Below are positions 77 through 26,628 of a DNA stretch of 58,226 nt, piece after piece. The position numbers were made by a program, and so were the translations under genes. Below the pieces are notes generated by a model. That model was not told the origin of the DNA. It did no database searches and saw only the letters and a list, made by a program, of their open reading frames with translations. Each line of letters starts with the position of its first letter. The first letter of the stretch is position 1. Origin of the DNA: a virus; IMG/VR virus record IMGVR_UViG_3300021364_002910, positions 1-58,226 of that record; one strand, given 5' to 3'.

Positions 77-706
77 ATGTTTGAAACCATGCACAAAGAA
101 ATTAAAAAGGCTGTGATTAGAAGCCAACACACACAAAGAAATTGGGATTTAAGCAAAGAAATTCCGCAAGATGACTTAGATTTGTTTGTCCATACAGTAA
201 CTAATTGTCCAAGCAAACAAAACTTTGCATTTTATAACGCTCATTTTATCACAGATAGAAAAATTATAGAAAAAATACATGATCTAAGTTTAGGTCTTGG
301 CTATCAAAATGAACAAGGTGAAAGAGTAGAATGTACAAATCCTCAAACATTAGCCAATCTACTTGTTGTGTTTGAAGAAGCAACAATGTCAGAAGAATAT
401 TGGAAAAAATTTGCACTAAGAGACACTTCATCAAAACGAATTCTTGAAAGAGATAGAGATATGGCTATCGGTATAGCGGCAGGATATTTAAATGTTACTG
501 CTGCAATGATGCACTATCAAACTGGATGTTGTGCTTGTTATGATGAACAAGGTGTGAAAGACTTGTTAGATTTAGAAAATAAACCAATACTTATAATGGG
601 GGTTGGTTATAAAGATCCTAACAGACAACGTAGAGAACATCATACTGATGGTGTAAAAATACAACGTAGGATTAAAGAGAAAATTAAGACACAGTTCTAC
701 ATTTAG
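77..706 (+). CDS. nitroreductase-family protein (copy A)
   Basis: This 209-aa protein looks like an FMN-dependent nitroreductase-fold oxidoreductase, a family that moves electrons from NAD(P)H via flavin to varied acceptors. An N-terminal segment NCPSKQN (residues 43-49) resembles the nitroreductase FMN-phosphate-contacting region. A long helix then leads to a cysteine-rich motif TGCCACYDE (149-157) and a C-terminal HHTDG (188-192). The last two motifs recur in the paralogue at 1809-2471 (TGCCKCYDE and HTDG), so they probably serve a shared function, possibly substrate or metal contact. The ATG has an excellent Shine-Dalgarno AAAGGAG six nt upstream. The 3' end overlaps the convergent radical SAM gene by 23 nt. 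The substrate is unknown. Its position beside radical SAM genes suggests a redox step in the same pathway or a reductase for them. Confidence 0.8.
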   Translation: MFETMHKEIKKAVIRSQHTQRNWDLSKEIPQDDLDLFVHTVTNCPSKQNFAFYNAHFITDRKIIEKIHDLSLGLGYQNEQGERVECTNPQTLANLLVVFEEATMSEEYWKKFALRDTSSKRILERDRDMAIGIAAGYLNVTAAMMHYQTGCCACYDEQGVKDLLDLENKPILIMGVGYKDPNRQRREHHTDGVKIQRRIKEKIKTQFYI

Positions 707-1796
707 GTATTTTTGAATCTGCGCTTGATACACAACTTTTTGTAATACACTGTTTAGGTGTCTTAAATAGCTTAAAACCTGTTTCGATGTTGCCAAGTGG
801 GGCATCATGACAAGAATAGGAACGTTTTATACTACCATCTGGTTCGCGTATGATAATTCCTTGATACCCTGCATTACAGTACCATCCTTCAAAATTATTA
901 AAGTTAAACGCATTTAATCGTTCAGCTTGATCTATGTACCATTTTTTACCTGTTTTATCTTCAAACTCTACTTGAAAATGTCCTGGCACAGACGAGTCGT
1001 CCTGTACTCCTTGAGGAACTTCAAAGGTTGCTTTGGGTCTTGCTGTCAGCTCACGTTTAGATTCTGTGTAGGCACGCTGTGGCATACCATTGTATAGGGT
1101 ATTTAGTTGGTTCTGGGTGTAACTATCTACAACACGAGAAGCTGTAGGATCAGATTGAGGTTTTAGTGTGACATTAATACCGCGCTCATGGAGGTAAAGA
1201 GCGTTCTCCCAATCTCTGTCAAACCATTCAGGCACCATCACCATATTCACTGTAACTTGTACATCGTAGGACTGGCAAAATTCTAACTTGTCTGCAAAGT
1301 TGCTTAAATCTTTCATAGTAGCAACATGTTCAGTATGTAAACTTGCAGTTATACTTGCTCTATGAAATGGTTTTGCATATTCAACATATTGCTCAAACCA
1401 CTTAATAGGACGAGAGCAATTTGATGTCATGTGTATGCTTGTATAATTAGTATTTTCTACATCATCTGCAAGATGCTTTAGTATGTCCAAGTATCCAGGA
1501 TGGAAAGTAGGCTCTCCCCCAGACAAACTAAAGTGAAAACTATTAAACCCATTATTTCTTGCTTGCCTTTTAATTTCATCAATTGTCATTAAACAAAGTT
1601 TTGTTGGCCGATGATCTTTTGTATTAGATCTAGCGTATGGCCAACAATAACTGCATCTATAATTACAGTATCTACCTAATAACCAACTTACAGTAAAAAT
1701 ATCTCTGTATAATAATGTTCGTTGTCCTACAGAGACTATATCGTCAAAAGGTATTTTTGAAAAGTCATATTGACTCCACTTCAAATCTTCAGTCAT
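684..1796 (-). CDS. radical SAM enzyme (rSAM 1), no N-terminal twitch domain
   Basis: A 370-aa radical SAM enzyme. The CX3CX2C [4Fe-4S] ligands are C44, C48 and C51 (CNYRCSYC). The SAM-binding GGE is at 93-95 (SGGEPTFHP). The TIM-barrel core fills the first two thirds. The C-terminal part holds further cysteines (WYCNAG, YSCHD, then C..KSC and KC in the last 25 residues), suggesting a SPASM/twitch-like auxiliary Fe-S cluster. Unlike rSAM 2-6 it has no cysteine-rich N-terminal domain, so it is a different subfamily. Nitroreductase genes lie on both sides: it overlaps one by 23 nt at its 3' end and is 12 nt downstream of the other. No clear Shine-Dalgarno precedes the ATG. The substrate is unknown; a peptide or a sugar are both possible for this family. 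Confidence 0.9.
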   Translation of the reverse strand: MTEDLKWSQYDFSKIPFDDIVSVGQRTLLYRDIFTVSWLLGRYCNYRCSYCWPYARSNTKDHRPTKLCLMTIDEIKRQARNNGFNSFHFSLSGGEPTFHPGYLDILKHLADDVENTNYTSIHMTSNCSRPIKWFEQYVEYAKPFHRASITASLHTEHVATMKDLSNFADKLEFCQSYDVQVTVNMVMVPEWFDRDWENALYLHERGINVTLKPQSDPTASRVVDSYTQNQLNTLYNGMPQRAYTESKRELTARPKATFEVPQGVQDDSSVPGHFQVEFEDKTGKKWYIDQAERLNAFNFNNFEGWYCNAGYQGIIIREPDGSIKRSYSCHDAPLGNIETGFKLFKTPKQCITKSCVSSADSKIPKCRTVS

Positions 1797-1808
1797 ATAG
1801 TTTTAAAA

Positions 1809-2478: not shown

Positions 2479-3717
2479 TTATCTCCAATACAACTTGAAT
2501 TCTGGATAGACATCAAGTATATTAGTATTATGATGTTTATCTAAAACCATAGTGTAATCTATGAATTTATGCCAGTATTTAAATTCATCTTTACTATTCA
2601 TATATCGAATAACCTGATTACCGTATCGCTTTGCACTTGCTATTTGAACTTCTACATTTATGTTAGGTTGCAAATTTTTTGTAATGTTATTTTCTATGTT
2701 TTCTAACCATTCATTCCATTTAAGTGTTAATTGTTTTTTCATTTCTGGTGGCAAAATTCTAGGATTGAGAGCTTGCGGATATTGAACTAAACTTGTATGT
2801 ATATAGGCGCCGATGCTATTATAATATTCAAATATTTCAGTAAGCCGAGTAATATTTAAGACACTTGTTGTACAGGTAGCACTTAGTTTTACATTCTTAA
2901 GTTCTGAATTTACAGTTCTAATATTTTGTTCTACATCTTCTATTTTTTTGTGGGTACGAACATATTCATATATAGGTGGATAACCATCTAAACTAACACG
3001 CAATAATATTCGTCTGTATTGATTCCATAAATCTATAACACTTTTACCTTTATATGTTAGTGTTGTAAGATTACTATTGTAACTCAACATTATATTCTTA
3101 GCATTGGGTAACATATTTTTTATAAAATCATAATGCTTGTCATGGTATATAGGTTCGCCGCCAGATATTAGCACAGCTTTTAAGCTATTACTAATACGTC
3201 CAATCTCGTCAATGGTTTCTATATTTAGATTTTTTGGTGCATCTAGTTCCCTATAAGTTCCATGTTCTAACATTTTTTCTTTTAGTGCAGGATTATCTCT
3301 CACTGCAGCATCCCATTTACTACTATAATCCGAACTACAATGTCTGCACATTAGATTGCAAATATTATCAAATCTTACTTCTAAAAAAATAAGATTATCT
3401 AAGGGCATATTGTAATCTTCATCAATTACACTTCTTACTTGTTCTTCAGTTATGTATAAATTATCTTCTTCTTGTTGTTGCCTAGTACTCACTACACCAC
3501 TATCTTCCATATCCCAACAACTTCTACATCCGGAATGTCTCTCATCATTAAGTAGAGCACGTCTGACATCCCGTAATTGTTCGCCATTCCAAGTTTTTTC
3601 TAAGGTATCATCCGTGTAATCTCCTATCTTACCTGGAAAACGCCAACAGGCACTTATTTTACCTTTTTGTTTTATATTAAGATGAGTGAAGGGTAAACTG
3701 CAATATGTTTTAGACAT
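2479..3717 (-). CDS. twitch-domain radical SAM enzyme (rSAM 2)
   Basis: This 412-aa protein has a cysteine-bearing N-terminal domain (C6 in YCSLPF, C24, and GCRSCW with C64/C67) of the type NCBI calls twitch-domain radical SAM. It probably holds an auxiliary Fe-S cluster. The radical SAM core follows, with C120, C124 and C127 (CNLMCRHC) and GGE at 186-188. The C-terminus ends in a motif shared with rSAM 3, 4, 5, 9 and 10: D..HN(T)N....YPEF..YW. It overlaps rSAM 3 by 8 nt, so translation of the two is probably coupled. Of the N-terminal CC pair seen in rSAM 3-5, only one cysteine (CW) remains here. The reaction is unknown; the family includes dehydrogenases, epimerases and peptide-modifying enzymes. 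Confidence 0.93.
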   Translation of the reverse strand: MSKTYCSLPFTHLNIKQKGKISACWRFPGKIGDYTDDTLEKTWNGEQLRDVRRALLNDERHSGCRSCWDMEDSGVVSTRQQQEEDNLYITEEQVRSVIDEDYNMPLDNLIFLEVRFDNICNLMCRHCSSDYSSKWDAAVRDNPALKEKMLEHGTYRELDAPKNLNIETIDEIGRISNSLKAVLISGGEPIYHDKHYDFIKNMLPNAKNIMLSYNSNLTTLTYKGKSVIDLWNQYRRILLRVSLDGYPPIYEYVRTHKKIEDVEQNIRTVNSELKNVKLSATCTTSVLNITRLTEIFEYYNSIGAYIHTSLVQYPQALNPRILPPEMKKQLTLKWNEWLENIENNITKNLQPNINVEVQIASAKRYGNQVIRYMNSKDEFKYWHKFIDYTMVLDKHHNTNILDVYPEFKLYWR

Positions 3718-5104
3718 CTTTAAAAATATCTTTCATCTCTGGAAATGTTTCATAAAAATTTGTATTCCTTTGTTTATCGCATAGTTCTAAGTATTCCTGC
3801 AATTCTGGCAATCTTACGGTCCAGTCCTCAGACTCCATAAAAGATAACATTCCTTCTAATCTTTTTAAGCCATAATTTGCTTTCTCCCAATCTTCATATT
3901 TTACTGTATGCCAACTAGGAATTCCCAAATGATAATTATCTTTCCACCAAGGATAAAAGTCTTGGTATTTTTTTCGACATTCTTTTTTAAACCATTTTGG
4001 TAATACTTTTACGTTGATGTGCCCAGGCCAATAAACAAAATGATGATTTATACCACCTGCACCAAAAGGCCACATATTAATCTTTTTAAAATTTTGGGTA
4101 AGTTTCCAACGAATAAAATCTGGTATGTAAAAAATATTTAGTGCATTAACTGCACAAGCAACAGTTACTTCTACGTTATCGGTTGTTTCATTGTCTAAAA
4201 TATGAAATACTTCCTCAGTTCTTTTCCATTTACTAGGGTAACGTATATACTCATTCATTTCAAATAAAGAATCTACAGAATAATGAAATCTAACTTTCTT
4301 AAAATTACTCCATAATTCAAATAAATCTTCTCGCCATTCAACACCGTTTGAATTGTATCGTATTTCTAAATTTTCCGCAAAGCCATTTTTTATTGCGTAT
4401 TCTAATATTTCATAATGTTCGTCAATAATCAGACTTTCTCCTCCTGCAAAATATACTTGACGCATTGTTGGCATTTGCTCATAAAACTGATTCCAAAATA
4501 TTGGATTATCTTTATGCCAATTATACGATGAGTAATTTGTGCTGCCTTTATTATCCCACTGCATTATTTCTTTTAGAGAGTCATTCTGTACTTTTGGATA
4601 TATTGCTCCCCAGTCTTTAATCCATCCCGATGAATCATGTGGAGAACACATAATACAACCTAGCTGACACTTTGTACCAAATCGTAAATCTATGTATGTG
4701 AGATGAGCAGGTGAATATCCATCTTCTTCAGTATTAGCTAAAATCCTATTTACGTCAACCCGTTGTGTCCAATACTCTGTTTCCCATTGGCGTTTGGATC
4801 TATGCCCTGCTGCTTCTTCCTTATAACACTTCGTACAAGAAGGAGGTTGCTCTCCATTTAACATTTGTTTACGAACATTCTTCATGTATTTGGAATTCCA
4901 TGCAGTTTGAAAATCTGTAACATTTAAATTGTTAGGTTTACCGTCGTCTGTCTTTAATATTCCTACTTGGCCGCCATGTTCTTTATCATTTGTAGGTCCT
5001 ACCGAAGATGCGTTTGCTGTGCAACAAACTCGCATAGATCCGTCTGGTCGAGTGCTTAAATGAACCCAAGGCAACAGGCAGAATGTATTAGATATGTTTT
5101 CCAT
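3710..5104 (-). CDS. twitch-domain radical SAM enzyme (rSAM 3)
   Basis: A 464-aa member of the twitch-domain radical SAM set. The N-terminal domain opens with FCLLPWVHLS (C9), then CC at 27-28 and SCTKC (C90, C93), presumably an auxiliary cluster. The core motif CQLGCIMC gives C146, C150 and C153. The SAM-binding motif is GGES. The C-terminal tail (RNTNFYETFPEMKDIF) is shared with its paralogues and is probably a structural or partner-binding element. It is the largest of the five twitch-type genes in tandem between 2479 and 8931, and overlaps rSAM 2 by 8 nt. A TGGAA sequence lies upstream of the ATG. The tandem paralogues suggest gene duplication followed by substrate specialisation; the substrate is not known. 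Confidence 0.93.
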   Translation of the reverse strand: MENISNTFCLLPWVHLSTRPDGSMRVCCTANASSVGPTNDKEHGGQVGILKTDDGKPNNLNVTDFQTAWNSKYMKNVRKQMLNGEQPPSCTKCYKEEAAGHRSKRQWETEYWTQRVDVNRILANTEEDGYSPAHLTYIDLRFGTKCQLGCIMCSPHDSSGWIKDWGAIYPKVQNDSLKEIMQWDNKGSTNYSSYNWHKDNPIFWNQFYEQMPTMRQVYFAGGESLIIDEHYEILEYAIKNGFAENLEIRYNSNGVEWREDLFELWSNFKKVRFHYSVDSLFEMNEYIRYPSKWKRTEEVFHILDNETTDNVEVTVACAVNALNIFYIPDFIRWKLTQNFKKINMWPFGAGGINHHFVYWPGHINVKVLPKWFKKECRKKYQDFYPWWKDNYHLGIPSWHTVKYEDWEKANYGLKRLEGMLSFMESEDWTVRLPELQEYLELCDKQRNTNFYETFPEMKDIFKDV

Positions 5105-5127: not shown

Positions 5128-6429
5128 TTAATAACCAAATAATTCCTTATATTGCGGTACAATTTTTGTTATATCTTGATTACGCAATTTATCTAAATCT
5201 CTTGTAAAGTGTATGAAGTAACTACGATGTGTATCTTCGTCTTTAGCATTCATGTATTTTGTAACTCCATTTAATATTTTATTAGCTTCTTTTATAACAT
5301 AGTCATCATATTTTTTAAACTCTATTTTTTTCTGTTCATAATGATCTACAACTTGTTTTTTTATTTCACTTGGCAATACTCGTATGCAAGAAGGCCAAGG
5401 ACGATGCGCTACATGATAACTAATAATAGGCTTGACTTTATGAGCATTTATTTTTTTAAATTTTTGTTCTAACTTCCATAACATAAAATCTGGCAGATGA
5501 AAAATGTTTGCTGTCGTAACTGTACAAGCTATCCAAGCCATAACATTATTAGGCAATCTATCTATCTTGTGTAAATTTTCTTCTATAGCCGACCATTTAG
5601 CAGGATACCTTTGATACTCCAAAACTTCTCCATACCCATCAACACTTGCTCCAATTCTAACTTCTTTAAAATGTACCCACATATCCAACACCCGTTGTTG
5701 AACATTTGTAAGATTGGTATTATATTCTAATATAATATTACTTGCTACATTTTCATCTATACATTTTTGCAAAAATTCATAATGACGTTCAATCATTAAT
5801 GGTTCACCACCTGCCATATACACATGTTGAATATTAATTAGATTAGCTTCTAGTTGTTCCCAAAACTTATAACTTTTGTGCCAATTATAATGATCAGTAG
5901 TCCAACGTCCTTTTTCATTTTTTTCTAATTTAACTATTCCATGAGTGTCTATAAATTTAGTGCCTTCTAATGCAACATGATCCTTGTACCAGGTATGACT
6001 ATCTTCGGGACCACACATTCTACAAGCAAGATTACATAAATTACCAAAACGCAAGTCATAATAAACTAACGGAGATTTATTTAAATCTAGTGTGCCGTCC
6101 TTTGTTGTTATGCTTTCTGCCCACTCAATTGTGTGCATGGGCCAATTACGTTGTTCATATTGTCTCCTACTACTAAGGCCACTTTCTTCTTCTGACTGGC
6201 AGCGTTGACAACTTTTGTGCCATTTGCCATTTAGCATAGTCTTTCTTACGTCTTTAATAAATTGGGCGTTTCTTACTTCGTTAAGATTATCTATTCTTGC
6301 ATTGTAAGGTGTTCCATCTTCTTTAAACAATGTACCTCTTTCTGCAGTGCTATTCATTTGACAACATATTCTTATACAACCATTATTTTGAATAGCTTGA
6401 AAATTCCAAGGTAGAGGACAAAAACTCAT
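5128..6429 (-). CDS. twitch-domain radical SAM enzyme (rSAM 4)
   Basis: A 433-aa protein. The N-terminal twitch-like domain has FCPLPWNF (C4), C18, CC at 22-23 and SCQRC (C74, C77). The radical SAM core has CNLACRMC (C132, C136, C139) and GGEP (MAGGEPLMIERHYEF). The tail motif LRNQDITKIVPQYKELF matches the D..RN.....FPE....F pattern of the group with V in place of F. Its start codon overlaps the stop of rSAM 5 by one base (TAATG), so the two are translationally coupled. A 23-nt gap separates it from rSAM 3. It is closest by eye to rSAM 3: both have the W.D....WH....FW segment between the core cysteines and GGE. The substrate is unknown. Confidence 0.93.
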   Translation of the reverse strand: MSFCPLPWNFQAIQNNGCIRICCQMNSTAERGTLFKEDGTPYNARIDNLNEVRNAQFIKDVRKTMLNGKWHKSCQRCQSEEESGLSSRRQYEQRNWPMHTIEWAESITTKDGTLDLNKSPLVYYDLRFGNLCNLACRMCGPEDSHTWYKDHVALEGTKFIDTHGIVKLEKNEKGRWTTDHYNWHKSYKFWEQLEANLINIQHVYMAGGEPLMIERHYEFLQKCIDENVASNIILEYNTNLTNVQQRVLDMWVHFKEVRIGASVDGYGEVLEYQRYPAKWSAIEENLHKIDRLPNNVMAWIACTVTTANIFHLPDFMLWKLEQKFKKINAHKVKPIISYHVAHRPWPSCIRVLPSEIKKQVVDHYEQKKIEFKKYDDYVIKEANKILNGVTKYMNAKDEDTHRSYFIHFTRDLDKLRNQDITKIVPQYKELFGY

Positions 6430-7724
6430 TAAAGCCTGCCTTTTTCAGTTTCATAAGTTTTATTAATTTTTGCAAGTTCTTTTTGAACTACTTCATAAAC
6501 TTCTGGAAAAATTAAAGCAAAGTTTTGATTTCTTAACATATCTAAATCTTTAGTGTGTTCAATGAAATATTTTAAGTCTACTTCCTCATTCAAATCTTTG
6601 TGTAACATATTAATTACTTTGTTGTATATTCTTTCAATTACATATTGCTCTTTAATTGTATTAGAACCATACTTTTTCATTATTTGTTTATATTTTTTTA
6701 TAAGTTCCTTTTTATTTGGTACATGCCGTAAACTATATGCTTCTGGTTTGTAAACACTACTGAAAACAATATCACCGCCGTTGTATCTATTTTTAGCATC
6801 AGTACGTGCTTGAAAATCTAAACCACGTTTAATCCTGTTATCTATCCACCAATCGACTAGCTTGTCTAAAGTTTGAACATTTAAAAAGTTAAGTGTAGGT
6901 GTAAGCACTATGTTTATTATACCTATTTCTTTTTCTAAGTCTAACCATTTTTCTGCACACGAACTGAGAATTTCCCATTTACTATTGTTACGTATGTAAT
7001 CATTCCTTTCTCCGTATGCATCAATACTCATCCAAATATTCACCTTTGCGAATCGTTTTAACATGTCTATAGTTTTGTCTTTAGGAAACCAACTAGTATT
7101 AGTAAAAATTGTAAGTTTTATCTGATCTTCTCTTCCACCTTCTAATAACGTTTCTATAAATCTATTAAAATTAGGATTTAACATTGGCTCTCCACCTACA
7201 AACTTAATTTCTTCTACATGTTCAAAATCTTCAACGTTCCAATTGAAAGGTATATCAATTATTTTTTCACTAGGTTGTATTTCTTCATATGCATGTTGTA
7301 ATTTTACATCATCGTCATGCCAAGAGCTACTCAGGGTGCTGTTACAAGTTCTACAACTTAGATTACAATAATTACCGATACTTACTTCTATATATTTTAG
7401 TTCGTTTTTAATAGGTTTATAATCTTGGTAGATACTATTGAAAAATGTACGCATACTGTAACCAGCTTCTTTTTCTTCTTTTATACATTTCCAACAACCT
7501 TCTACAATTTCACCATTAAGCATTGCTTTACGTAAAGATTCAAATTGCTCACTTTCAACAACTGCTTTAGTGCCTATCTTGTTATGATCTAATTTCCACC
7601 ATTCTCTAGTTTCTTCGAAACCGCCCCAAGATTGAAATCTACAACATGGTTTTGCCTTACCAGCCGGATTAACTGCAAAATGTATAAACGGTAGAACACA
7701 AAATGACTTATTGTCTTTTGTCAT
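6429..7724 (-). CDS. twitch-domain radical SAM enzyme (rSAM 5)
   Basis: A 431-aa protein. The N-terminal domain has FCVLPFIHFAV (C9), CC at 27-28 and GCWKC (C77, C80). The core has CNLSCRTC (C120, C124, C127) and GGEPMLNP. The tail has LRNQNFALIFPEVYEVV. GGAG lies ten nt before the ATG at 7724. It overlaps rSAM 6 by 17 nt and rSAM 4 by one base, inside a five-gene run of paralogues. The C-terminus extends about 20 charged residues past the shared tail motif, unlike rSAM 2-4. Family and cofactors are clear from the motifs; the reaction is not. Confidence 0.93.
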   Translation of the reverse strand: MTKDNKSFCVLPFIHFAVNPAGKAKPCCRFQSWGGFEETREWWKLDHNKIGTKAVVESEQFESLRKAMLNGEIVEGCWKCIKEEKEAGYSMRTFFNSIYQDYKPIKNELKYIEVSIGNYCNLSCRTCNSTLSSSWHDDDVKLQHAYEEIQPSEKIIDIPFNWNVEDFEHVEEIKFVGGEPMLNPNFNRFIETLLEGGREDQIKLTIFTNTSWFPKDKTIDMLKRFAKVNIWMSIDAYGERNDYIRNNSKWEILSSCAEKWLDLEKEIGIINIVLTPTLNFLNVQTLDKLVDWWIDNRIKRGLDFQARTDAKNRYNGGDIVFSSVYKPEAYSLRHVPNKKELIKKYKQIMKKYGSNTIKEQYVIERIYNKVINMLHKDLNEEVDLKYFIEHTKDLDMLRNQNFALIFPEVYEVVQKELAKINKTYETEKGRL

Positions 7725-17673: not shown

Positions 17674-19174
17674 TGTTATACCAAAAGTTTTTTAATTCAG
17701 GAAAAGTTTGTAGGAAGTCTGTGTTCCTTTTTTGGTCATATTGTTTAAAAAATTTAACAAAATTTTTCCGATTAACTGATTTATTAGAATTTGATTTTTG
17801 AAAATATTCTAAATTTCTTCTACATTTATTAATTTCAAAATCATAAAATCCTTCAAAATTAGATGTATCTGAGTTTTCTTCCATAAACTCAATAGCATCA
17901 ATAAAATATTTGTCAAAATCATTTGGTAGTACCAAAATATTCATCCATTCTGGGTTGCGTAAAAGTGGAATATCAAACCAAATTCTTTGTTTAGGATGGA
18001 CTTCATAATCTGGATGTTTATAATAAGGATCGTGGATCGGAATTTTTTTGATTCCTTGTGCATCTTTATTATACTTTTTTCGCAAGTCTAAAACAAATTT
18101 TAAAAATTCTGTAAATTTAGGCAAACTTAATGCATTAAATGTATTAATAAAAGTTAAAGTGGAATTGAATGTTTGTTCTAAATAACTGTTTACATTTTTT
18201 TCTAATACAGAAAAATTTAAACCATCTCTAATATATTCCGCTTGCTTTCCTACACTATCTAAACTTACAAATAATGAAAAATTCTTAAGAGAAGGATTAA
18301 CATACCAGTAATTACCTGAACCAGGATTGAATTTATTTTTATCTTCCCAAATTTGAATTTCTTCTAATTTTTTAATTTTTCCTAAAAATTTATCAAATAA
18401 AGTATGTGTAGGAGGACACAAGTTAGTAGTTATACTTAATTCTAAACTTATATTAGGATTATTGTAAATATAATCTAAAATTTCAAATGTATTATTATCA
18501 ACTAATGGTTCTCCTCCTGTAATTCTAAAAATTTCTAATTTATTATAAAGTTCAGGCCACCATTTCCAAAATGCTTGTAAATATGGATTATCAGCTTGTT
18601 TCATTTTTTTTGGTAATAAATTTAACTCCGATAACGCATTTAGATTGTTATGCTTTACTAAATTATTTGTACTATCAAATACTTCATAATCTCCGTATTG
18701 ATAAACATGATCTTCCCATGCTGTACTAAGATGAGGACTACAGTACATACACTTTAAGTTACAAGCTTGATTAAAATTAATTTCTAAATATCTTGGTTCT
18801 ATATCACCATCTGCTAATACATCAAAAATATCATTCCTAGAATTCTGTGCCCAGTATTCGCCAGACCTATAAATACGATCGCTTCTATTTCCAGTGTCTT
18901 CAATATTCCAACAGTATGAACAGCCGCTAGGCCGTACGCCCTTTAACATGTCTGCACGTTCTGTTTTTTTCTGATTAGTATTATGTAATGCTTTAGGATT
19001 ATCTTTTATTTGATTTAAATCAATTTTATGTAAAGGAGGATGATAACAACTATGAGTCATACCGTTAGCTAAATTTATACTTGATTGTGTCCACTTAGCA
19101 TAACACATTGTTTTACTTATTTTATTTAATTGCGATTCTGCTATATCTGCAAATTTATCATATTCGCTTTTCAT
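17666..19174 (-). CDS. twitch-domain radical SAM enzyme (rSAM 9)
   Basis: A 502-aa enzyme, the longest of the set. The N-terminal twitch-like domain has MCYAKW (C24), THSCYHP (C43) and GCSYCWN (C85, C88). The core has CNLKCMYC (C138, C142, C145) and ITGGEPLVD. The C-terminus ends in KRNTDFLQTFPELKNFW. With rSAM 10 it forms a distinct subfamily (C.AKW, SCYHP.P.HKI, NP.ALHNT.QKK.ERA.ML.GVR) that differs from the LPW type at 2479-8931. Paralogue identity with rSAM 10 looks high by eye. It sits between a glycosyltransferase and an SGNH protein with 4-8 nt overlaps, so it is tied to glycan genes. The reaction is unknown. Confidence 0.93.
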   Translation of the reverse strand: MKSEYDKFADIAESQLNKISKTMCYAKWTQSSINLANGMTHSCYHPPLHKIDLNQIKDNPKALHNTNQKKTERADMLKGVRPSGCSYCWNIEDTGNRSDRIYRSGEYWAQNSRNDIFDVLADGDIEPRYLEINFNQACNLKCMYCSPHLSTAWEDHVYQYGDYEVFDSTNNLVKHNNLNALSELNLLPKKMKQADNPYLQAFWKWWPELYNKLEIFRITGGEPLVDNNTFEILDYIYNNPNISLELSITTNLCPPTHTLFDKFLGKIKKLEEIQIWEDKNKFNPGSGNYWYVNPSLKNFSLFVSLDSVGKQAEYIRDGLNFSVLEKNVNSYLEQTFNSTLTFINTFNALSLPKFTEFLKFVLDLRKKYNKDAQGIKKIPIHDPYYKHPDYEVHPKQRIWFDIPLLRNPEWMNILVLPNDFDKYFIDAIEFMEENSDTSNFEGFYDFEINKCRRNLEYFQKSNSNKSVNRKNFVKFFKQYDQKRNTDFLQTFPELKNFWYNNV

Positions 19175-20061
19175 ATTCCTTTAACAATGATATTTGATAT
19201 TTTTTCCATAACTGTTGAACTAGGGTGCATAATATCTCTTGCAAACGTTTCATTTATATAATCTACATCTTTGCTATCTTGAAACGTTTCCTTGCCCACA
19301 GTATCCACTGTTGAATTTGTGAGATAAGTTACATCACTAAAAATACTACAAGTAACTAATTTAGTCCTATCTTTACACAAAGCTTGTACTGTTTGATTAA
19401 GATGATATAATTTTACTGCTGTATGGATAGGTGACGTGAAATTTGTTTTATAAAAATTATTGATATTTATTGGATACGCCTCGGTATATGTAACCTCTGA
19501 CTGTTTATTATAAATTGGTTGTGTGCTTACATCCCATGGTCCATAATAATGCTCTTCGTGTGACCCATAAAATGTAATTCTATCATTTGCAGTATAATTA
19601 ATTATTATCATTTTTGGCATTTCAAAATTATTAATTATACATACTAAATTTTGTAAAATTTTTTCGTTTCCTGCAGAAGGAACGCCTAAATTAATAACAG
19701 GCATATCTAATTTCTGTTCAAGGTAGTATGCTAAAGTTTCGTCGTCATCTAAACCTACTCCATATGTGATACTACATCCTAAAAGAACAGCTGAATTTTT
19801 CCAATCTATATCTGCCCATTCTTTTGTTCTATAACCACTTTTATTAAGATTATATGTTATATCTTTTTTATAATATTTCCATCTGTTTCCAAATTTTTTT
19901 GCATTTTTTTCATAAAGTTCGACGTTATCGCCTCTATGCCATTTTATCGATCCGCCATTTGTATTAGGCAAAAAACCAAAAGGATGGTCTTTTGAATCTA
20001 TATATTTAGGCCATTCGAATGCACCTTTTTCGAAGGAAGGTTGATATTTATTTATATTCAT
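19171..20061 (-). CDS. SGNH-hydrolase-like protein (b)
   Basis: This 296-aa protein has a complete set of SGNH blocks: LLGCSITYGVG (S97), LGVPSAGNE (G126, N132), YTAND (N159, D160) and DIMH (D276, H279). All residues needed for a Ser-His-Asp esterase-type site are there. An N-terminal stretch of about 85 residues, with KWHRGDN and SGYRT, precedes the hydrolase fold; the SGYR..EW part resembles the N-terminal lead-in of other SGNH phage and O-antigen-cluster proteins. There is no signal peptide. It overlaps rSAM 9 by ATGA and the next SGNH gene by 14 nt. The likely role is O-acyl transfer or removal on a glycan (inference). Confidence 0.82.
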   Translation of the reverse strand: MNINKYQPSFEKGAFEWPKYIDSKDHPFGFLPNTNGGSIKWHRGDNVELYEKNAKKFGNRWKYYKKDITYNLNKSGYRTKEWADIDWKNSAVLLGCSITYGVGLDDDETLAYYLEQKLDMPVINLGVPSAGNEKILQNLVCIINNFEMPKMIIINYTANDRITFYGSHEEHYYGPWDVSTQPIYNKQSEVTYTEAYPININNFYKTNFTSPIHTAVKLYHLNQTVQALCKDRTKLVTCSIFSDVTYLTNSTVDTVGKETFQDSKDVDYINETFARDIMHPSSTVMEKISNIIVKGI

Positions 20062-21031
20062 TGTTGTAAAACCATTCTGCTAATAATTTATGACTTTTTT
20101 TAGAAGGATGAGCACATATAGTCAAAAAGCCGTTAGGCGTACCTTTATGTAATATATTCAAGAAGTCAAATGACGACCATTCTTCAGGTTCTTGTTGCAG
20201 AATAAAATCTGCGTAATTACTAGCACCATTAGGGGTTACAAAGCAATCCCAGGGATATTCATTAACCATATGCAAATATTTTGATTTTTTTCCTTTTACT
20301 CGGTTTTCTAAATGATTGTAAACTGGACCTAATGTTTGTTTAAAATGATCTTTCGTAAAAAAAGGATTGAATGCAGGCAAAATCATAAACTTACTATTTT
20401 TAAAACTTTTAGATATCCATTGCAAATGCCTTGTATAAAAAAAAAGATCAATGATTGCTCTTTTTTCATTATATGTCCTTGCATACAAAGCACATAAACT
20501 ATGATATAAAACAGATACTCTATCTTTTTTACTAGGTGGATGCGGCCATAATGTCCAATGCCAAAAGTTATTAGATTCATCTACTGTTGGATAATATCCT
20601 CTAGACACATCTGTAGGCATAAAGATTATATCTAAAGTTTCTATACTTCCCCAATCTATTCCAATTATATCTGCATACCTTATAGATGATGCATTTCCAC
20701 AACCAGGCAAACCAAAATTTAACGGAACATAATCATTATTCAAATATTCTTTAGTAAGAATAGAAACAAAAGAATTATCATTTTCTTGTACAAAAGACTC
20801 TTCAAAATAATATCCATCTTTATAATGGCCAAACTTTCCCCTGTACTGATTTATGTATGTTTGATCTAATAAAAATGCACGCCTTGCACCTACCATTTTT
20901 GTAGGAAATTGATCCATTACAGGATCATATGCTCCTTGTCCTGCTGCCCAACTACAACCATAAACTGCAATAGCTTTCTTTTTTAATTTTAATTCTCTAT
21001 TTATAGCATCTATATCAATAATCATAGTCAT
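20048..21031 (-). CDS. SGNH-hydrolase-like protein (c), acid of DxxH missing
   Basis: A 327-aa protein with block I YGCSWAAGQG (S27), a block-II-like FGLPGCGNASS, and a C-terminal ICAHPSKKSHKLLAEWF with the presumed catalytic H308. The aspartate normally three residues before this His is isoleucine (I305), so the triad is incomplete or uses another acid. It may be a weak enzyme or a binding protein. It sits next to SGNH (b), which it overlaps by 14 nt, and overlaps the fucosyltransferase-like gene by 17 nt. ATG at 21031 or 21025 could start it. Assignment to the superfamily is fairly sure, function is not. Confidence 0.72.
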   Translation of the reverse strand: MTMIIDIDAINRELKLKKKAIAVYGCSWAAGQGAYDPVMDQFPTKMVGARRAFLLDQTYINQYRGKFGHYKDGYYFEESFVQENDNSFVSILTKEYLNNDYVPLNFGLPGCGNASSIRYADIIGIDWGSIETLDIIFMPTDVSRGYYPTVDESNNFWHWTLWPHPPSKKDRVSVLYHSLCALYARTYNEKRAIIDLFFYTRHLQWISKSFKNSKFMILPAFNPFFTKDHFKQTLGPVYNHLENRVKGKKSKYLHMVNEYPWDCFVTPNGASNYADFILQQEPEEWSSFDFLNILHKGTPNGFLTICAHPSKKSHKLLAEWFYNNEYK

Positions 21032-22328
21032 TCTCTACAATGGTTTTTATTTTATTATAAATTACACTGTTCATTCTAAATCTTTTTAAAATTAGATCTT
21101 GATTAAACTGCAAAATAGGCATACAATTTTGATAAAATTCTAATTTTTCTTCTTGGCTTTTTTGACAAAAATCCTTTAAGACTGTAATAATTTTATCTAA
21201 TCTAGAAATGTCATCTAGATTATCATAAGATTCGTCAATAAAAGATTCAAAAGTTTTATAACCTAATTCTTTAAGCCTTTGCAAACTAAATTTTGCTCCA
21301 TAAATTATAAAAGGATGTCCGCATGCAATCGGTTTAAATGTTTTTTCACTCAAAAAACCTGTTTCTGCTGCGGTAAAATAATGTGCTTCGCTAACAACTG
21401 TTAACCAAGAATGACACATTATTTCAAAATTTAACTCTTGTATTAATTCACCATTATGAGGACTTGTAAAAAGATTTTCTTTATTTTGGTAATATTTAGG
21501 AATAATAGGCAATAATTTATTCAACTCTCTTACTCTTTTTTCTTCACAATAGATTGGAAAATCTTTAAAATAATGTATAGATTCGTTTGGCAATTTATTC
21601 ATAGAATTTATACCTTTATCTAACAACTTGTTTTCACTTAATTTGTCAAACAAAAAAACTCTATGACCTCTTGCTCTTTTTTGTAAACAATTATAATCTT
21701 TTATACTTTGTAAACGTTTTGCTTTATAAGATAGTTGTTTATTTATATTAGTAATCCTTTTACGATTATTATGCGTTGTTAATATAGAAGAAATATGTGT
21801 TTCAAAAACTTCGTACACAATAACATGCATCTTGACTTTTAAATCAAATTGACTATACCAAGCTTTATAATTTTTTGGTGCATTGAAATCTCCAGTAATA
21901 TAGATAATTTGCTGAATCGGAACGTCATATTTATTCGCATTTGTATGCATCCATTCCCAAAGCCAACTTTCGTGACATCCTTCATGCGATTGATCTAACA
22001 AAAGAAACGCTTTACCTTTTTGTAAATCTTGTATATAATCTTTATTCAAATACTCAAATAAAGTTTTTTTATTATCTTTTGGTCCTTCTGTCCAAAAACT
22101 AGGATCATGTGCTACACCTGTTGATATAACATAAGGTCTATCATATAAAGGAGTACAAGAAAAAGTAGGATCTATACTTCTATCTTTAAATAATGTTTTG
22201 TTTAAAGTTAAGGCATTAACTAAAGGACTTATTGGAAATCTAGGTATACCAGACGTATTTAAATCATCACATTTAATAAAATTTTGCAAACCATTCTCGT
22301 CATCTATTTTTTCAAAAATAAAATGCAT
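21015..22328 (-). CDS. fucosyltransferase-like glycosyltransferase (a)
   Basis: This 437-aa protein has the C-terminal FLSEKTFKPIACGHPFI (325-341), followed by L..LGYKTFESFIDESYD. This resembles the nucleotide-sugar-binding (S/T)EK.FK....(K/H)PFI region of alpha-1,3-fucosyltransferase-like GT-B enzymes and related marine phage proteins. It shares this C-terminal half with the paralogue at 23328-24569. The N-terminal half (about 1-180) is not similar to anything I know. It lies one base after the epimerase gene, which could make its nucleotide sugar donor. Donor and acceptor are unknown. Confidence 0.68.
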   Translation of the reverse strand: MHFIFEKIDDENGLQNFIKCDDLNTSGIPRFPISPLVNALTLNKTLFKDRSIDPTFSCTPLYDRPYVISTGVAHDPSFWTEGPKDNKKTLFEYLNKDYIQDLQKGKAFLLLDQSHEGCHESWLWEWMHTNANKYDVPIQQIIYITGDFNAPKNYKAWYSQFDLKVKMHVIVYEVFETHISSILTTHNNRKRITNINKQLSYKAKRLQSIKDYNCLQKRARGHRVFLFDKLSENKLLDKGINSMNKLPNESIHYFKDFPIYCEEKRVRELNKLLPIIPKYYQNKENLFTSPHNGELIQELNFEIMCHSWLTVVSEAHYFTAAETGFLSEKTFKPIACGHPFIIYGAKFSLQRLKELGYKTFESFIDESYDNLDDISRLDKIITVLKDFCQKSQEEKLEFYQNCMPILQFNQDLILKRFRMNSVIYNKIKTIVENDYDY

Positions 22329-22329
22329 C

Positions 22330-23331
22330 TTACAATAATTTATTTTTCCAGGTTAAAGGAGTTTTGCTGTTACATATTTCAATTGGATATGCATAATCAA
22401 ACTTTTTTACGCCATTGTGTGTAATATAATCTATTGTTTTTTGTATAGCTGTATCTAGATCTGTTTCTGTTTTATAGCCTAAAAGCTGCCTTGCTTTATT
22501 AGAGCTGCACAATGCTATTTTTACTTCTTGTGGTCGATCAGCAACATGTTCAGGCTTTAAATTGCTATTCAGCAAATTTAAAATTTTATTTGTAATAATA
22601 TTAATCGATACTTCTTCTTCATCCGGTCCAATATTAAAAATTTCATTTTTAATTTCTTTAGATAAAATTAATTTTTCTAAACAATTTACACAATCTGTTA
22701 CATAACTAAAACATCTTTTTTGTTCACCATTACCGTAAACAATTGGTGGTTTACCTTGCAACACTCTGTTAATCATAATACTTATTACATTCCTATAAGG
22801 GTCATTATAACGTTGCCTAGGTCCGATTATATTATGTGGCACTGCTATATTGTATTCTAGATTATGAACTTTTGCTAAAACTTTTAAAGTATCTTCGACT
22901 GCAACTTTTGCAATACCATAAGGATCTACAGGAGCAGGAATTAAATCTTCAGTAAAAGGTGTTTTACTGTTACCATAACGAGCCATTGAAGAGCAAAAAA
23001 CAATTCTCTTAACTCCTTTATTTATTGCTGCAGATATAACAGACAACGAAGCTTGATATATATTTTTAGTTATAAAATTTGGACTAAAAACACTAAAACC
23101 TTCATGAGCAGTTGCAGCAGCATGTACAACTACATCTATATCGTCTATTATTCCTAAAATTTTGTCAAAATCACAACAATCAATTTTATGAAACTCTACA
23201 TCTTTAGGTATATTATCTAAACTACCTCCTATGAGATTATCATTTCCAACTACATGATGGCCTAAACTAAGCATCCTGTCTGCAATATGACTTCCTAAAA
23301 ATCCTGCCACACCAGTAACAAATATCTTCAT
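22330..23331 (-). CDS. NAD-dependent epimerase/dehydratase (extended SDR)
   Basis: A 333-aa enzyme of the extended short-chain dehydrogenase/reductase family that acts on nucleotide sugars. The Rossmann motif VTGVAGFLGSH has G7, G10 and G13. The catalytic motifs are S114/S115 (VFCSS) and Y138..K142 (YGIAK). Length and order match UDP-glucose 4-epimerase-type proteins; 4-epimerase, 4,6-dehydratase and reductase cannot be told apart here. I chose the ATG at 23331, which puts MKIFVTG at the N-terminus and overlaps the upstream stop as ATGA; a longer reading from 23370 adds 13 residues of no homology. It probably supplies an activated sugar for the flanking fucosyltransferase-like proteins (inference). 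Confidence 0.88.
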   Translation of the reverse strand: MKIFVTGVAGFLGSHIADRMLSLGHHVVGNDNLIGGSLDNIPKDVEFHKIDCCDFDKILGIIDDIDVVVHAAATAHEGFSVFSPNFITKNIYQASLSVISAAINKGVKRIVFCSSMARYGNSKTPFTEDLIPAPVDPYGIAKVAVEDTLKVLAKVHNLEYNIAVPHNIIGPRQRYNDPYRNVISIMINRVLQGKPPIVYGNGEQKRCFSYVTDCVNCLEKLILSKEIKNEIFNIGPDEEEVSINIITNKILNLLNSNLKPEHVADRPQEVKIALCSSNKARQLLGYKTETDLDTAIQKTIDYITHNGVKKFDYAYPIEICNSKTPLTWKNKLL

Positions 23332-24569
23332 GACAAGTCTCCTAATACTTTTTGTAACCATTCTAAACATTTGCGATGATTAACAGTAGCCTTTGCTATT
23401 TTCGTTGCTACAATATAATTATGCTCTGCTATTGGTTTACATTTATCTATTAATAGATTCATTTCAGCTGCAGATAATCTGTTTATCCTATAGATTTCTT
23501 TACTAATATATCTCATACGAGTGGCATTATCTAATTTACTATCATATCTTTCATTTATCAATGGCGAAAAAGATTTAAAACCTAGTTTTTTAAAATCTAC
23601 AAAAAAATTAGGGGTTGAAACAATTATAAAAGGTTTTTTTAATAAAATCGGTTTAAAAACTTTTTCTGTAATAAATGTAGCAGAAAGCCTTTCCGCTGTC
23701 ATATCTTCAATACCTGGCCACTGTATGTACCTTTTTTCTAATGGATCATAATGAGATTCTATACAGATATGAATATTAGCATTTTTTAACATATCCCATA
23801 CAAAATTATTATATTTTTCAGTTCTATACAAAGTATCATCTTCTGCTTTATAAGGTAGGTTTTCTAACCACTTGAGAAAACCAGAAAGTGGTTTTCCTTT
23901 GATGATTTTGCTATAATCTTCTATTATACTATCTACAGGAACCGTTAGATTTTTTCCATCCAGATCCCAATGATAAGGCATTATATTTTGAAATGTAAAA
24001 TAACTTTCTGGTAAAATATTATTTTTCCAAAGTTTATAATAAAATTCTAATCTCCATAACTGGTAATTCCTAGAAAAAACAGAAAATTTCTTTGTAGGTA
24101 AAGGATCTACATTTGCATTTTCTTTTAAATAGTTTTTAGCTGAGTCTAAAGCTTTATGCAATAAAAAATTAGTAGACATGATATTAAAATTTGTAATTCC
24201 AAACTCATCTCTTAATGTTTTAATTGTCCAATGCTCAAAATTTTTATCTGTACAAACAATTAAAATTTTGTTTGTGGGTATATTGTATTTTTTTAATGGC
24301 TCTGCCCATTCCCTTATATTATACCAATTATAATATTCATCAGGAAAAAAAAACATAAGATATGTATTACGTCTATTTTTTAACAACTGCCATTCTTTTT
24401 CAGAAAAAAGTTGGCTTAATGTTTTGTTTCTTACAGCTTTATCATGCTGGTCACACCAAAACACTAGTTTCAAAGATTCATTTATATAACATACCTTAGG
24501 TATTTCTTTTACAAAAGATTTTTGTGGTAAATCAAAATGATCAGCACCTGTCGGGCTATAAAATATCAA
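23328..24569 (-). CDS. fucosyltransferase-like glycosyltransferase (b), TTG start
   Basis: A 413-aa paralogue of the protein at 21015-22328. FITEKVFKPILLKKPFI (299-315) and LGFKSFSPLINERYDS mark the presumed nucleotide-sugar site. Upstream is FSRNYQLWRLEFYYKLW, an Arg-rich helix also typical of this family. The start appears to be TTG at 24569, with AAGGAA about seven nt upstream and no early in-frame ATG. It overlaps the oxygenase gene by 14 nt and the epimerase gene by ATGA. The two paralogues flank the epimerase on both sides, which suggests successive transfer of one or two sugars. Confidence 0.68.
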   Translation of the reverse strand: MIFYSPTGADHFDLPQKSFVKEIPKVCYINESLKLVFWCDQHDKAVRNKTLSQLFSEKEWQLLKNRRNTYLMFFFPDEYYNWYNIREWAEPLKKYNIPTNKILIVCTDKNFEHWTIKTLRDEFGITNFNIMSTNFLLHKALDSAKNYLKENANVDPLPTKKFSVFSRNYQLWRLEFYYKLWKNNILPESYFTFQNIMPYHWDLDGKNLTVPVDSIIEDYSKIIKGKPLSGFLKWLENLPYKAEDDTLYRTEKYNNFVWDMLKNANIHICIESHYDPLEKRYIQWPGIEDMTAERLSATFITEKVFKPILLKKPFIIVSTPNFFVDFKKLGFKSFSPLINERYDSKLDNATRMRYISKEIYRINRLSAAEMNLLIDKCKPIAEHNYIVATKIAKATVNHRKCLEWLQKVLGDLS

Positions 24570-25227
24570 CTGGGATTCCTTTTTTATCTTTATAATACAA
24601 ACTTCTATGAGGAATTACATTCTTATTTGAATTATTTTTATAAAAAAATAATCTAAATGTAGTTCTATTTTTAATTTTTACTTTATCGTATCCATGTAAA
24701 GTATTTTCAGAGTGAGAAAAAAGTATACACCTGTTAAATTTAGGTGTTACTGAATACAATAATTCATCATTAATATTGTAAAAATTTAAATTACCACCAT
24801 ATACTGACTTCCAGTCTTCTGTCAGATAGACTATTAAAGAATACGCTCTTTCTAATCTTAATTCATCATTCCAATTAAAATCAACGTGTGTTTTTAATTC
24901 TTTATTTAACGGTGTTTTACTATATCCTGCACCAATCAAATATGGATCGCAAATCAAATAAGGAATTCTCACAAAATTTGACATTTCTGTTAAAAATTTT
25001 TTGCTGTGGCATAAATTTACAAATTCTTGAGCATACTTACAATTTTCGATTTGATTATACTCTAACATTAAACTGTCATTTCTGTCAAACTTTTTACACG
25101 TATCTTCATTAATAAGCATTAGTTCAGCATACATGTTTTTAATTAAACTACTACAAAAAAAATCATCTTTATAAAATATAACTTGCTTAGTAGGCAATAA
25201 TATTTTCACAAAATTATTAAAATCCAA
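24556..25227 (-). CDS. 2-oxoglutarate/Fe(II)-dependent oxygenase, TTG start
   Basis: This 223-aa protein fits the prolyl-4-hydroxylase-like oxygenase fold. The iron ligands are H114-x-D116 (THVDF) and H178 (TLHGY). R192 (or R188) would bind 2-oxoglutarate. YGGNLNFYN (143-151) is the usual GG.L.FY strand between them. Such enzymes hydroxylate amino acid side chains, sugars or other small molecules. The start is TTG at 25227, with AAGGAT about nine nt upstream and no in-frame ATG nearby. A late-promoter-like AATAAATA lies 26 nt upstream. It overlaps the fucosyltransferase-like gene (b) by 14 nt. The substrate is unknown; hydroxylation of a virion protein to give a glycan attachment site is one idea (inference). 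Confidence 0.85.
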   Translation of the reverse strand: MDFNNFVKILLPTKQVIFYKDDFFCSSLIKNMYAELMLINEDTCKKFDRNDSLMLEYNQIENCKYAQEFVNLCHSKKFLTEMSNFVRIPYLICDPYLIGAGYSKTPLNKELKTHVDFNWNDELRLERAYSLIVYLTEDWKSVYGGNLNFYNINDELLYSVTPKFNRCILFSHSENTLHGYDKVKIKNRTTFRLFFYKNNSNKNVIPHRSLYYKDKKGIPVDIL

Positions 25228-25253: not shown

Positions 25254-25261
25254 TATTTATT
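25254..25261 (-). promoter_or_regulatory. possible late promoter (AATAAATA) before oxygenase gene
   Basis: AATAAATA on the minus strand, one base from TATAAATA. It lies in the 36-nt gap before the TTG start at 25227, one of the few gaps in this tightly packed block. It could re-initiate late transcription of the genes from 25227 down to 13968. Confidence 0.35.
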
Positions 25262-25263
25262 TT

Positions 25264-26628
25264 TTAATGAACAGACTGTTTACATAGATTAAAGAACGAT
25301 TCTAATTCAGGAAATGTAGAAATAAAATTTGTATTTCTACGCACATCATATTCTGTAAACCAATTATAAAAATCTCTCCTACCTTCTAAAATTATTTTTT
25401 CTTCATAAGTTACATTAGCAAAATAATTTCTAACCCGCCTAAATCTTTCATATTCTAAATTAGAAAATTTAGTTGTATCATTATCATCGGTATTATTTTT
25501 AATATACTCTAATATATTATCAAAATATGGTAAAAATTCAGTCTTTGGCAATATATGCATATCATATTGCAAAGGTTCTTTTAAATATGGTGTGTCAAAT
25601 CGAATTCTACGTCTATCTTTATGATAAAATTCTTTCCTCCATTCTAATACTTTACTTAAAAATTTTTCAAAACTTGTTACACTTAAAATATTAAAAGTAC
25701 ACATTATAGAAAGATTACAAGGAGTTAATCGTAAATAATCTTTCATATTTTTTTCCCATAAAGATATGTCTAAACCTGTCCGTATATATTCTGCTTTATT
25801 ATCATAAGTATCCATGCTAGAATACAATTTAAATCTTTTAACACTCCCATTTTCTATCAAAGTATTAACTATTTTTATTAAACGTTTTACTAGTCTATTA
25901 GAAACTCCTAAATTACTATTAATATTAAGTTCTATATTTGGCCTAGGATTTTTTACCAAATAATCTAAAATTTTCCAAGTACTCTTATGTAATAACGGTT
26001 CACCGCCTGTAATTCTTAAAATATTTAATGTTTCTGATAATTTAGGCCACCATTTCCACCAAGCCTGGATATACGGATTATTATCTTCCTCCATTGGATT
26101 AAACCAATCTATATCTAAATTATGATTGTGTACACCAGGAACTTTACCAAATTTTTGAATTTCTGCATGATATGAACTACTTGCCATAGGATGACAGTAT
26201 CCACATTTAAAATTACACTCATTACTGAAAGCAATTTCTACATATTCAGGAGCAACATCAAAGTCCCAAGGATTCTCTAAAATTTCGTTTACTCTATTTT
26301 CAGTGTAAATGCTTTCATTTCTAATCATTCTATCACTAATGTGGTTATCACCTAAATCTTCAACATTCCAACAATATTGACATCCGTCGCATCTTACCCC
26401 AGTTAACATCTTTGCACGTTCTTTCTTTTTTTGTATTGTATTATGCAAAGCACTAGGATTATTTTCTATTTCTTCTAAGGGTATTTTATGAGGGGCTGGA
26501 TGATAACAACTATGAGTATCACCTGTGTGAAGATATATTGTTGTGTGGTGCCATTTAGCCAAACAAAATGTAGGACTAATTTTTTCTATTAATGAATTGT
26601 TTTTCCTAATTTTTTCTGTTTCGCTCAT
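25264..26628 (-). CDS. twitch-domain radical SAM enzyme (rSAM 10)
   Basis: A 454-aa close relative of rSAM 9. The N-terminal domain has FCLAKW (C22), THSCYHP (C41) and GCQYCWN (C83, C86), with an extra C80. The core has CNFKCGYC (C138, C142, C145) and ITGGEPLLH. The C-terminus has RRNTNFISTFPELESFF. The core cysteines fall at exactly the same residue numbers as in rSAM 9. Sequence agreement is strong through the N-terminal 150 residues and the GGE region, while the loop after the core cysteines is shorter. It follows a glycosyltransferase gene by 2 nt, as rSAM 9 follows one in the reverse order. The substrate is unknown, but the pairing with this transferase family is seen twice in the window. 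Confidence 0.93.
   Translation of the reverse strand: MSETEKIRKNNSLIEKISPTFCLAKWHHTTIYLHTGDTHSCYHPAPHKIPLEEIENNPSALHNTIQKKKERAKMLTGVRCDGCQYCWNVEDLGDNHISDRMIRNESIYTENRVNEILENPWDFDVAPEYVEIAFSNECNFKCGYCHPMASSSYHAEIQKFGKVPGVHNHNLDIDWFNPMEEDNNPYIQAWWKWWPKLSETLNILRITGGEPLLHKSTWKILDYLVKNPRPNIELNINSNLGVSNRLVKRLIKIVNTLIENGSVKRFKLYSSMDTYDNKAEYIRTGLDISLWEKNMKDYLRLTPCNLSIMCTFNILSVTSFEKFLSKVLEWRKEFYHKDRRRIRFDTPYLKEPLQYDMHILPKTEFLPYFDNILEYIKNNTDDNDTTKFSNLEYERFRRVRNYFANVTYEEKIILEGRRDFYNWFTEYDVRRNTNFISTFPELESFFNLCKQSVH

Follow-up and report, generated by a model that had tools for sequence, protein, structure and literature searches.

Phages that carry ten or more radical S-adenosylmethionine (radical SAM) genes have been on record from 2010 onward, with no function assigned to these sets. 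The Campylobacter phages CP220 and CPt10, described in that year, encode 11-12 radical SAM proteins, five of them in an interchangeable module together with an amidinotransferase (PMC2853527); a 183-kb T4-like genome from Tara (TARA_ERS488813_N000010) appears in the relevant part of a 2017 paper with 12 radical SAM genes and Fe-S assembly genes (PMC5332604); and the host-recognition cluster of pelagimyophages, in the section of the paper that treats it, includes radical SAM cassettes that can be exchanged and that lie close to genes for tail fibres (PMC7029224). The subject of the present analysis is a block of ten radical SAM genes (R1-R10) within about 26 kb of phage DNA, in a fragment of 58,226 bases (IMG/VR record IMGVR_UViG_3300021364_002910, positions 1 to 58,226) that is termed ‘the window’ throughout. 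An earlier, sequence-only reading of the window had counted these ten genes correctly, but had set such a battery against a background of phages known for single radical SAM genes. That background was wrong: because CP220, CPt10 and the Tara genome precede it, a large phage radical SAM battery is not new. What appear to be new are its conserved architecture, its link to glycosyltransferases (GTs) and tail fibres, and a gene encoding 75 amino acids (aa).

The block is one instance of an island that is present in hundreds of IMG/VR contigs. We read it, with confidence that stands about midway, as a surface-decoration island that is linked to the tail fibres and whose cytosolic glycan pathway, with a core of GTs and radical SAM enzymes, would be diversified by interchangeable radical SAM enzymes.

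Ten radical SAM enzymes in a phage window

All ten open reading frames (ORFs), each on the minus strand, are open and unbroken as first delimited; the frame of R6 would extend over 7708-8946 if a GTG start were used, and the ATG start agrees with that of its family. Each contains exactly one CX3CX2C motif, for which the background frequency of cysteine (Cys) gives a chance expectation of about 0.002 in the ten, and the other 30 annotated proteins of the window contain none. The possibility of frame-broken copies, which the sequence-only reading had raised against its own proposal, is rejected, as all ten frames are intact and display family matches and conserved motifs. The hidden Markov model searches proposed at that time have now been run, and divide the enzymes along the lines then described (seven with N-terminal auxiliary clusters and three with Cys-rich C-termini). 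At a cut-off of 170 bits, R2-R6, R9 and R10 match the NCBIfam model NF033640 (N_Twi_rSAM) with 278-416 bits over nearly the full length of the profile, a model to which seven of the ten window enzymes thus belong and which itself carries no function; R1, R7 and R8 reach 45-51 bits across the core only, and match PF04055 instead.

When 50 diverse N-twitch sequences are aligned, the GGE motif, all three cysteines of the cluster, three of the twitch cysteines and several further positions prove invariant, and the fourth twitch cysteine is nearly so. A Pfam search of R1, R7 and R8 gave no SPASM match, though each harbors four to five C-terminal cysteines that are invariant in its orthologues (C307/C329/C350/C355 in R1, C236/C255/C256/C325/C329 in R7 and C255/C274/C275/C339/C343 in R8). 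An AlphaFold2 (AF2) model of R3, with a predicted local distance difference test (pLDDT) value of 90, displays a radical SAM fold. By the CX3CX2C motif, the GGE motif (of the N-twitch proteins), the PF04055 and NF033640 matches and the R3 model, the ten are assigned as predicted members of the radical SAM superfamily. Ten is a minimum, since the window is a fragment and its left end cuts the island.

The anchored enzymes, which hold their place from phage to phage, include R1 (684-1796; PF04055, 2.6e-15), with conserved C-terminal cysteines of a SPASM/twitch-like kind that remain invariant in orthologues 67-81% identical at 34 loci (window counted); R3 (3710-5104; NF033640, 416 bits), an N-twitch enzyme that is more conserved than any other enzyme encoded in the island; R8 (10840-11907; PF04055, 1.5e-8), with SPASM-like C-terminal cysteines, present in 76 of 81 loci (window counted) and in most loci the first radical SAM gene after the methyltransferase-like gene MT and the 75-aa gene SH; and R10 (25264-26628; 316 bits), an N-twitch enzyme whose gene adjoins the GT gene g26631. 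R9 (17666-19174; 306 bits) is an N-twitch enzyme and the sister of R10 in a phylogenetic tree, and R4 (5128-6429; 369 bits) represents a frequent N-twitch family (35 loci). The variable set contains the N-twitch enzymes R2 (2479-3717; 307 bits; family in 13 loci) and R5 (6429-7724; 288 bits), as well as R7 (9800-10843), which is recognized by PF04055 (1.8e-12) and its SPASM-like pattern of C-terminal cysteines. R6 (7708-8931; 278 bits), again of the N-twitch type, travels with the aminotransferase-like gene AMT, which it adjoins in loci L016, L025, L026 and L145-L149.

The attribution of the window to a phage, also made in the sequence-only reading, holds: its proteins match, among PHROG families, a baseplate wedge protein (phrog_10646, E=1e-292), a gp25-type wedge and tail fibres. 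Jumbo myophages such as Atu_ph07 are about 36% identical to the window phage, which these sequence matches identify as a myophage of the T4 superfamily whose baseplate genes are of the jumbo type.

Fixed order and exchangeable enzymes

From the tail fibres inward, the island consists of two GT8 genes, g26631 (GT-A), an N-twitch enzyme and a variable sugar cassette, followed by a second GT-A-type gene, MT, SH and then the anchors R8, R3 and R1. A search with R3 led to 116 viral contigs, from which 80 loci were kept (67-79% identity); their recurrent order is g16021, MT, R8, a first group of radical SAM genes, R3, a second group that includes radical SAM, aminotransferase and nitroreductase genes, and R1. 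The number of extra radical SAM genes varies from 0-6 between R8 and R3 (76 loci) and likewise from 0-6 between R3 and R1 (32 loci). When g26631 served as the starting point, 141 loci were found and 80 taken; GT8a and GT8b are each present in 79/80 and a radical SAM gene in 78/80, which lies immediately downstream of g26631 in 69 of 78 non-edge loci, within a conserved order of tail fibres, g29821, GT8b, GT8a, g27551, g26631 and radical SAM. An anchored order maintained in dozens of phages bears out the earlier claim of a whole pathway, as opposed to one auxiliary gene.

The 508 radical SAM ORFs of these loci, together with the ten of the window, form 93 families at 40% identity, of which three or four are anchored and most others sporadic, and 18 larger contigs contain between 5 and 18 NF033640 matches each. 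In the tree, the N-twitch enzymes of the window mostly have their nearest relatives in other phages (R9 and R10 form an unresolved cluster), which argues for reshuffling rather than local duplication; local gene amplification as the origin of the block, which would not scatter the window enzymes among those of other phages, is rejected. Two complete N-twitch domains share one frame in G007 (196980-199625), G013 (28702-31353) and L068 (12661-15210), a sequence arrangement which suggests enzymes acting in pairs. Genes for Fe-S assembly (an A-type carrier or IscU-type protein) occur in 5/18 related contigs (G003, G006, G007, G008 and G010), consistent with a high demand from Fe-S enzymes and in line with PMC5332604.

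The GT genes, like MT and SH, all lie on the minus strand. The AF2 model of g26631 (26631-27554; pLDDT 87.7) has as its top matches the GT-A enzymes WrtF, RmlT, TarP and SunS (best Z 10.3), and its D-x-D-type motif is formed by the invariant residues D64 and D66. GT8a and GT8b (28102-29824) are predicted to be GT8-type enzymes by a profile match to glycogenin (2e-5). The g16021 protein (16021-17673) has N-terminal repeats and a C-terminal domain that is assigned to the GT-A type by its motif and by its fusion to the modelled g26631: in L031, L037, L038 and L055, g26631, the C-domain of g16021 and MT are a single ORF. MT (15342-16046) is considered methyltransferase-like from sequence motifs; it had no family match among the libraries scanned, and its profile found no solved relative.

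SH (15128-15355), which is absent from the gene list of the sequence-only reading, begins at a TTG codon overlapping the end of MT and fills the one sizeable gap in the block. It was found in at least 309 viral contigs, at about 70-82% identity in most, with one copy per locus, typically between R8 and MT, directly following the latter or the fusion that contains it. Mean column identity is 83% (in a sample of n=16), and 469 of 849 nucleotide differences fall at codon position 3, a concentration which makes it very probable that SH is translated and under constraint; together with R8, R3 and R1, it is among the best-conserved parts of the island. In a comparison with precursors of ribosomally synthesized and post-translationally modified peptides (RiPPs), SH was found to be conserved along its full length, with no leader/core split, known motif or family match seen. 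No convincing match was present in Pfam, PHROGs or PDB, matches to de novo repeat proteins in the PDB being judged spurious (they involve a short helical stretch, and no domain passes alone). SH was not found in isolated phages; among 50,697 isolate phage records, R3 leads to three distant records, R8 to four and R1 to none.

The remaining genes of the block comprise putative redox, aminotransfer and sugar functions. NTR1 (77-706, plus strand), often located beside R1, is assigned to the nitroreductase-family flavoproteins by PF00881 (1e-9) and by position, and NTR2 (1809-2516, minus) is weakly nitroreductase-like (PF00881, E 1.1e-4, just under the cut-off). AMT (8971-9819, plus) resembles the pyridoxal phosphate (PLP) fold-type-I aminotransferases: it contains HIDGAW and SLSK motifs, its D160 and K188 are invariant and its profile matches the solved aminotransferases 3if2 (7.9e-6) and 3g7q (3e-5). 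The variable sugar cassette (19171-25227, minus) encodes two SGNH-like proteins (PF00657, 1.4e-4), an NAD epimerase (22330-23370; PF01370, 7.8e-49), a 2-oxoglutarate (2OG)-Fe(II) oxygenase (24556-25227; PF13640, 7.7e-15) and two proteins (21015-22328 and 23328-24569) which match no family and are tentatively labelled GT-like.

An optional cassette (11984-13992, plus) contains DUF6614 (PF20319, 1.1e-18), an amidinotransferase (12252-13502) and g13459, with a further member, an acyltransferase-like (ATE_C-like) protein at 14692-15141 (minus), identified by synteny and by PF04377 (5.8e-5, just under the cut-off). The amidinotransferase matches HsvA (3.3e-9), SxtG and AGAT, including the C-terminal region of the catalytic Cys, where FHCATLDVKR aligns with WHCLTLDIKR, and is predicted on this basis to belong to their family. 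The same four-gene group (11984-15141 in the window) also occurs in L179-L181, L192 and L195.

Tail-fibre and virion structural genes occupy 30227-36910 (minus); 31175-36910 has PHROG matches to tail, tail collar fibre and virion structural proteins, and 30227-31147, which has no PHROG match, is placed among the tail genes by synteny. The gene at 37550-53785 (minus) encodes a giant virion protein of 5411 aa (phrog_10938, E 1e-249), the C-terminal third of which contains a carbohydrate-binding match (CBM_5_12) and a head-closure-type match (phrog_460). Contig L197, 88-100% identical to the window proteins from g36915 to R10, evidently comes from a phage closely related to that of the window.

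What the island may make

The observations on which the decoration reading is built are the intact enzymes, the conserved order, the modular exchange, the GT-A fold, the GT8 similarity, the fusion of two GTs with MT, the adjacency of tail fibres, and the finding that other phages and some bacteria have radical SAM genes surrounded by genes for polysaccharides. NF033640 is rare among sampled Pseudomonadota genomes; one bacterial genome has four tandem N-twitch genes amid genes for WbsX, a methyltransferase, an ABC-2 transporter, RmlD and RmlC (an O-antigen-type locus), and two others have a single N-twitch gene near GT2 and/or epimerase genes (the GT2 of L142 being assigned by sequence motif). 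The conserved GTs beside the radical SAM core, the tail-fibre adjacency, the GTs found with such genes in unrelated phages and the O-antigen-type setting in a bacterium all argue for glycan chemistry. No exporter-like hydrophobic profile was found among the proteins encoded between 684 and 30168, where the peak windows (in MT and the epimerase) barely exceed the threshold, as compared to 68 over-threshold windows in a transporter control; this lack of an integral-membrane, exporter-like protein fits the direct glycosylation of a cytosolic protein, and, with no machinery for export, suggests that virion proteins are decorated directly in the cytosol.

In such a pathway, the fixed GT8a, GT8b, g26631 and g16021, together with MT, would assemble a glycan whose likeliest carriers are the tail fibres or other proteins of the virion, and the fixed radical SAM core (R10/R9, R8, R3 and R1) would perform steps common to all island phages. 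The swappable radical SAM set, the sugar-cassette enzymes, the aminotransferase and sometimes the amidinotransferase cassette would then add strain-specific modifications to the sugars, with dehydrogenation, epimerization, deoxygenation, amination and guanidination as candidates. The outcome would be a rapidly varying chemical coat, with effects on receptor binding or on evasion of recognition by the host. Sugars and aminocyclitols are established substrates of twitch and SPASM enzymes, which oxidize, epimerize or deoxygenate them (BtrN, NeoN and AprD4), and radical oxidation followed by PLP-dependent amination and amidino transfer would, by analogy, parallel pathways of the streptamine type, the amidino transfer step being the weakened one. 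A more ambitious version, which we offer tentatively and hold to be possible though doubtful, is that a large, uncultured clade of phages keeps 90 or more radical SAM families as a combinatorial library, with a fixed set of core genes (SH, R8, R3, R1, R10 and the GTs) at its centre, that exchange of cassettes programs chemically distinct coats of the virion, in a role comparable to O-antigen variation but executed by radical chemistry, and that SH is a new carrier, adaptor or substrate.

Several points weigh against the decoration reading. The sugar substrate, the virion target and each of the reactions are inferred. The nearest solved folds of the R3 model include peptide-modifying enzymes (anSME, CteB and SkfB) as well as sugar- or nucleotide-modifying ones (DesII, BlsE and viperin), so that the fold cannot separate a peptide from a sugar substrate, and SH could be a peptide substrate. 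N-twitch genes were found in only four non-phage bacterial genomes, in one of which (locus L144) the gene has no sugar context. The place of the amidinotransferase in a radical SAM pathway is weakened by phages that have the gene group to which it belongs but, in its vicinity, scarcely any radical SAM genes or none at all. Finally, the locus counts are not independent, given some redundancy among the contigs of IMG/VR, and the presence of R3 in the loci retrieved through it is a matter of construction.

If peptides were the substrate, the radical SAM enzymes would act, as RiPP or protein maturases do, on amino-acid side chains in tail fibres, in other proteins of the virion or in a small peptide, and the GTs would then act at the same positions. 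Many SPASM and twitch enzymes do act on peptides, anSME and CteB are structural matches of the R3 model (Z about 12), the tail-fibre genes adjoin the island and the conserved SH lies between MT and R8; yet no peptide is in view in the O-antigen-type locus with its four tandem N-twitch genes, SH would be a poor substrate for variable enzymes because it is nearly constant where the accessory radical SAM sets change completely, and, SH aside, a coding fraction of 0.987 leaves no room in the window for a precursor gene. We regard this explanation as unlikely, while granting it a real minority chance. A lower probability is given to remodelling of the host’s surface polysaccharide or lipid A during infection (for superinfection exclusion or release) in place of decoration of the virion. 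The GT, epimerase and SGNH genes would fit that purpose, PagP and LpxC are encoded close to the radical SAM/GT genes of Vibrio phage K566, and the bacterial homologues sit in lipopolysaccharide-type loci; however, family scans and hydrophobicity revealed no recognizable flippase, ABC exporter or lipid-carrier enzyme in the window, and the island runs on the same strand into the tail-fibre genes, an adjacency that is conserved.

The tight association of SH, R8, R3 and R1, which are the most conserved genes and stay together while others vary, might also reflect the synthesis of a small peptide-derived or other redox cofactor for the remaining island enzymes, much as PqqA and PqqE make pyrroloquinoline quinone. 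The chance of this appears slim, for SH, conserved over its full length and with no known motif, lacks the known features of a cofactor precursor, and no dehydrogenase that would use the product was identified. Hypermodification of DNA or nucleotides is a very slight prospect: radical SAM, PLP and transferase enzymes can take part in the pathways by which phages modify their bases, but the island contains no nucleotide-biosynthesis or base-modification gene, and its neighbours are glycosyltransferases and tail genes.

A block for host metabolism that was taken from bacteria is unsupported. The only close relative of R3 in a bacterial genome lies on a 13-kb contig of low guanine-plus-cytosine content, CANEUJ010000032.1, in a Neisseriaceae metagenome-assembled genome (L128/L140), and this contig carries g26631, MT, R8 and R3 in the phage island order, for which reason it is probably phage DNA, either mis-binned or from an infecting phage, and a possible hint of the host. 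The sequence-only reading had contrasted its new pathway with a block shared by virtually every related phage and serving a known host function; the first half of that description applies, the island being near-universal in its group, and the second does not, as no known host metabolic function accompanies it. Its proposal of a chemically unusual group on glycans or proteins of virion or host gains from the GT-A, GT8, epimerase and SGNH genes beside the tail fibres and from the O-antigen-type locus, and the choice of glycan over protein, and of virion over host, is one that we infer.

Relation to known phage systems

Among open-licence papers, nothing was found that connects radical SAM enzymes with virion glycosylation, nor any published account of the fixed core, the glycosyltransferase/tail-fibre order or the 75-aa gene. 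The skeleton of tail fibres, GT8, GT-A and radical SAM enzymes and a 75-aa protein turns the puzzle of phage radical SAM sets into specific tests, and the island represents a diverse natural collection of such enzymes that is likely to hold new chemistry. If the glycan reading is true, the surface chemistry of virions across a widespread group of phages would be far more elaborate than has been assumed.

CP220 resembles the window in that five of its radical SAM genes are clustered with the amidinotransferase, adjoining two nucleotide-sugar transferases, and the two amidinotransferases are homologous (E 5e-9). In contrast, the proteins of the CP220 cluster match a SPASM-like profile and not the N-twitch profile of the window enzymes, no R3 relative was found there, the conserved order of tail and GT genes was not seen, and similarity to R8 is weak (26.6% over 47%); with enzymes and order both different, the island is not a module of the CP220 type. 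One CP220 sugar transferase that was compared with the g26631 profile had no detectable relation to it, and the aminotransferase profile recognized neither of two hypothetical proteins of that phage.

The Tara set was compared by its description, and the one sentence that treats it, as Fe-S metabolism, mentions neither architecture nor a glycan link. Pelagimyophages are a different phage group in which a related idea has been put forward, and the relevant section of PMC7029224 describes neither enzyme families nor a fixed core. The Vibrio phages K566 and K567 have five N-twitch genes interleaved with GT8 genes, but with 20-28% identity and on mixed strands, and no R3, R8 or R1 anchors or SH were found. 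The PagP and LpxC homologues of K566 (L127, 27984-29250) lie beside its radical SAM/GT8 cluster, which suggests, from their sequences, lipid A remodelling in that phage. Viewed against these systems, the island is a well-organized variant of the known but unexplained radical SAM sets of phages.

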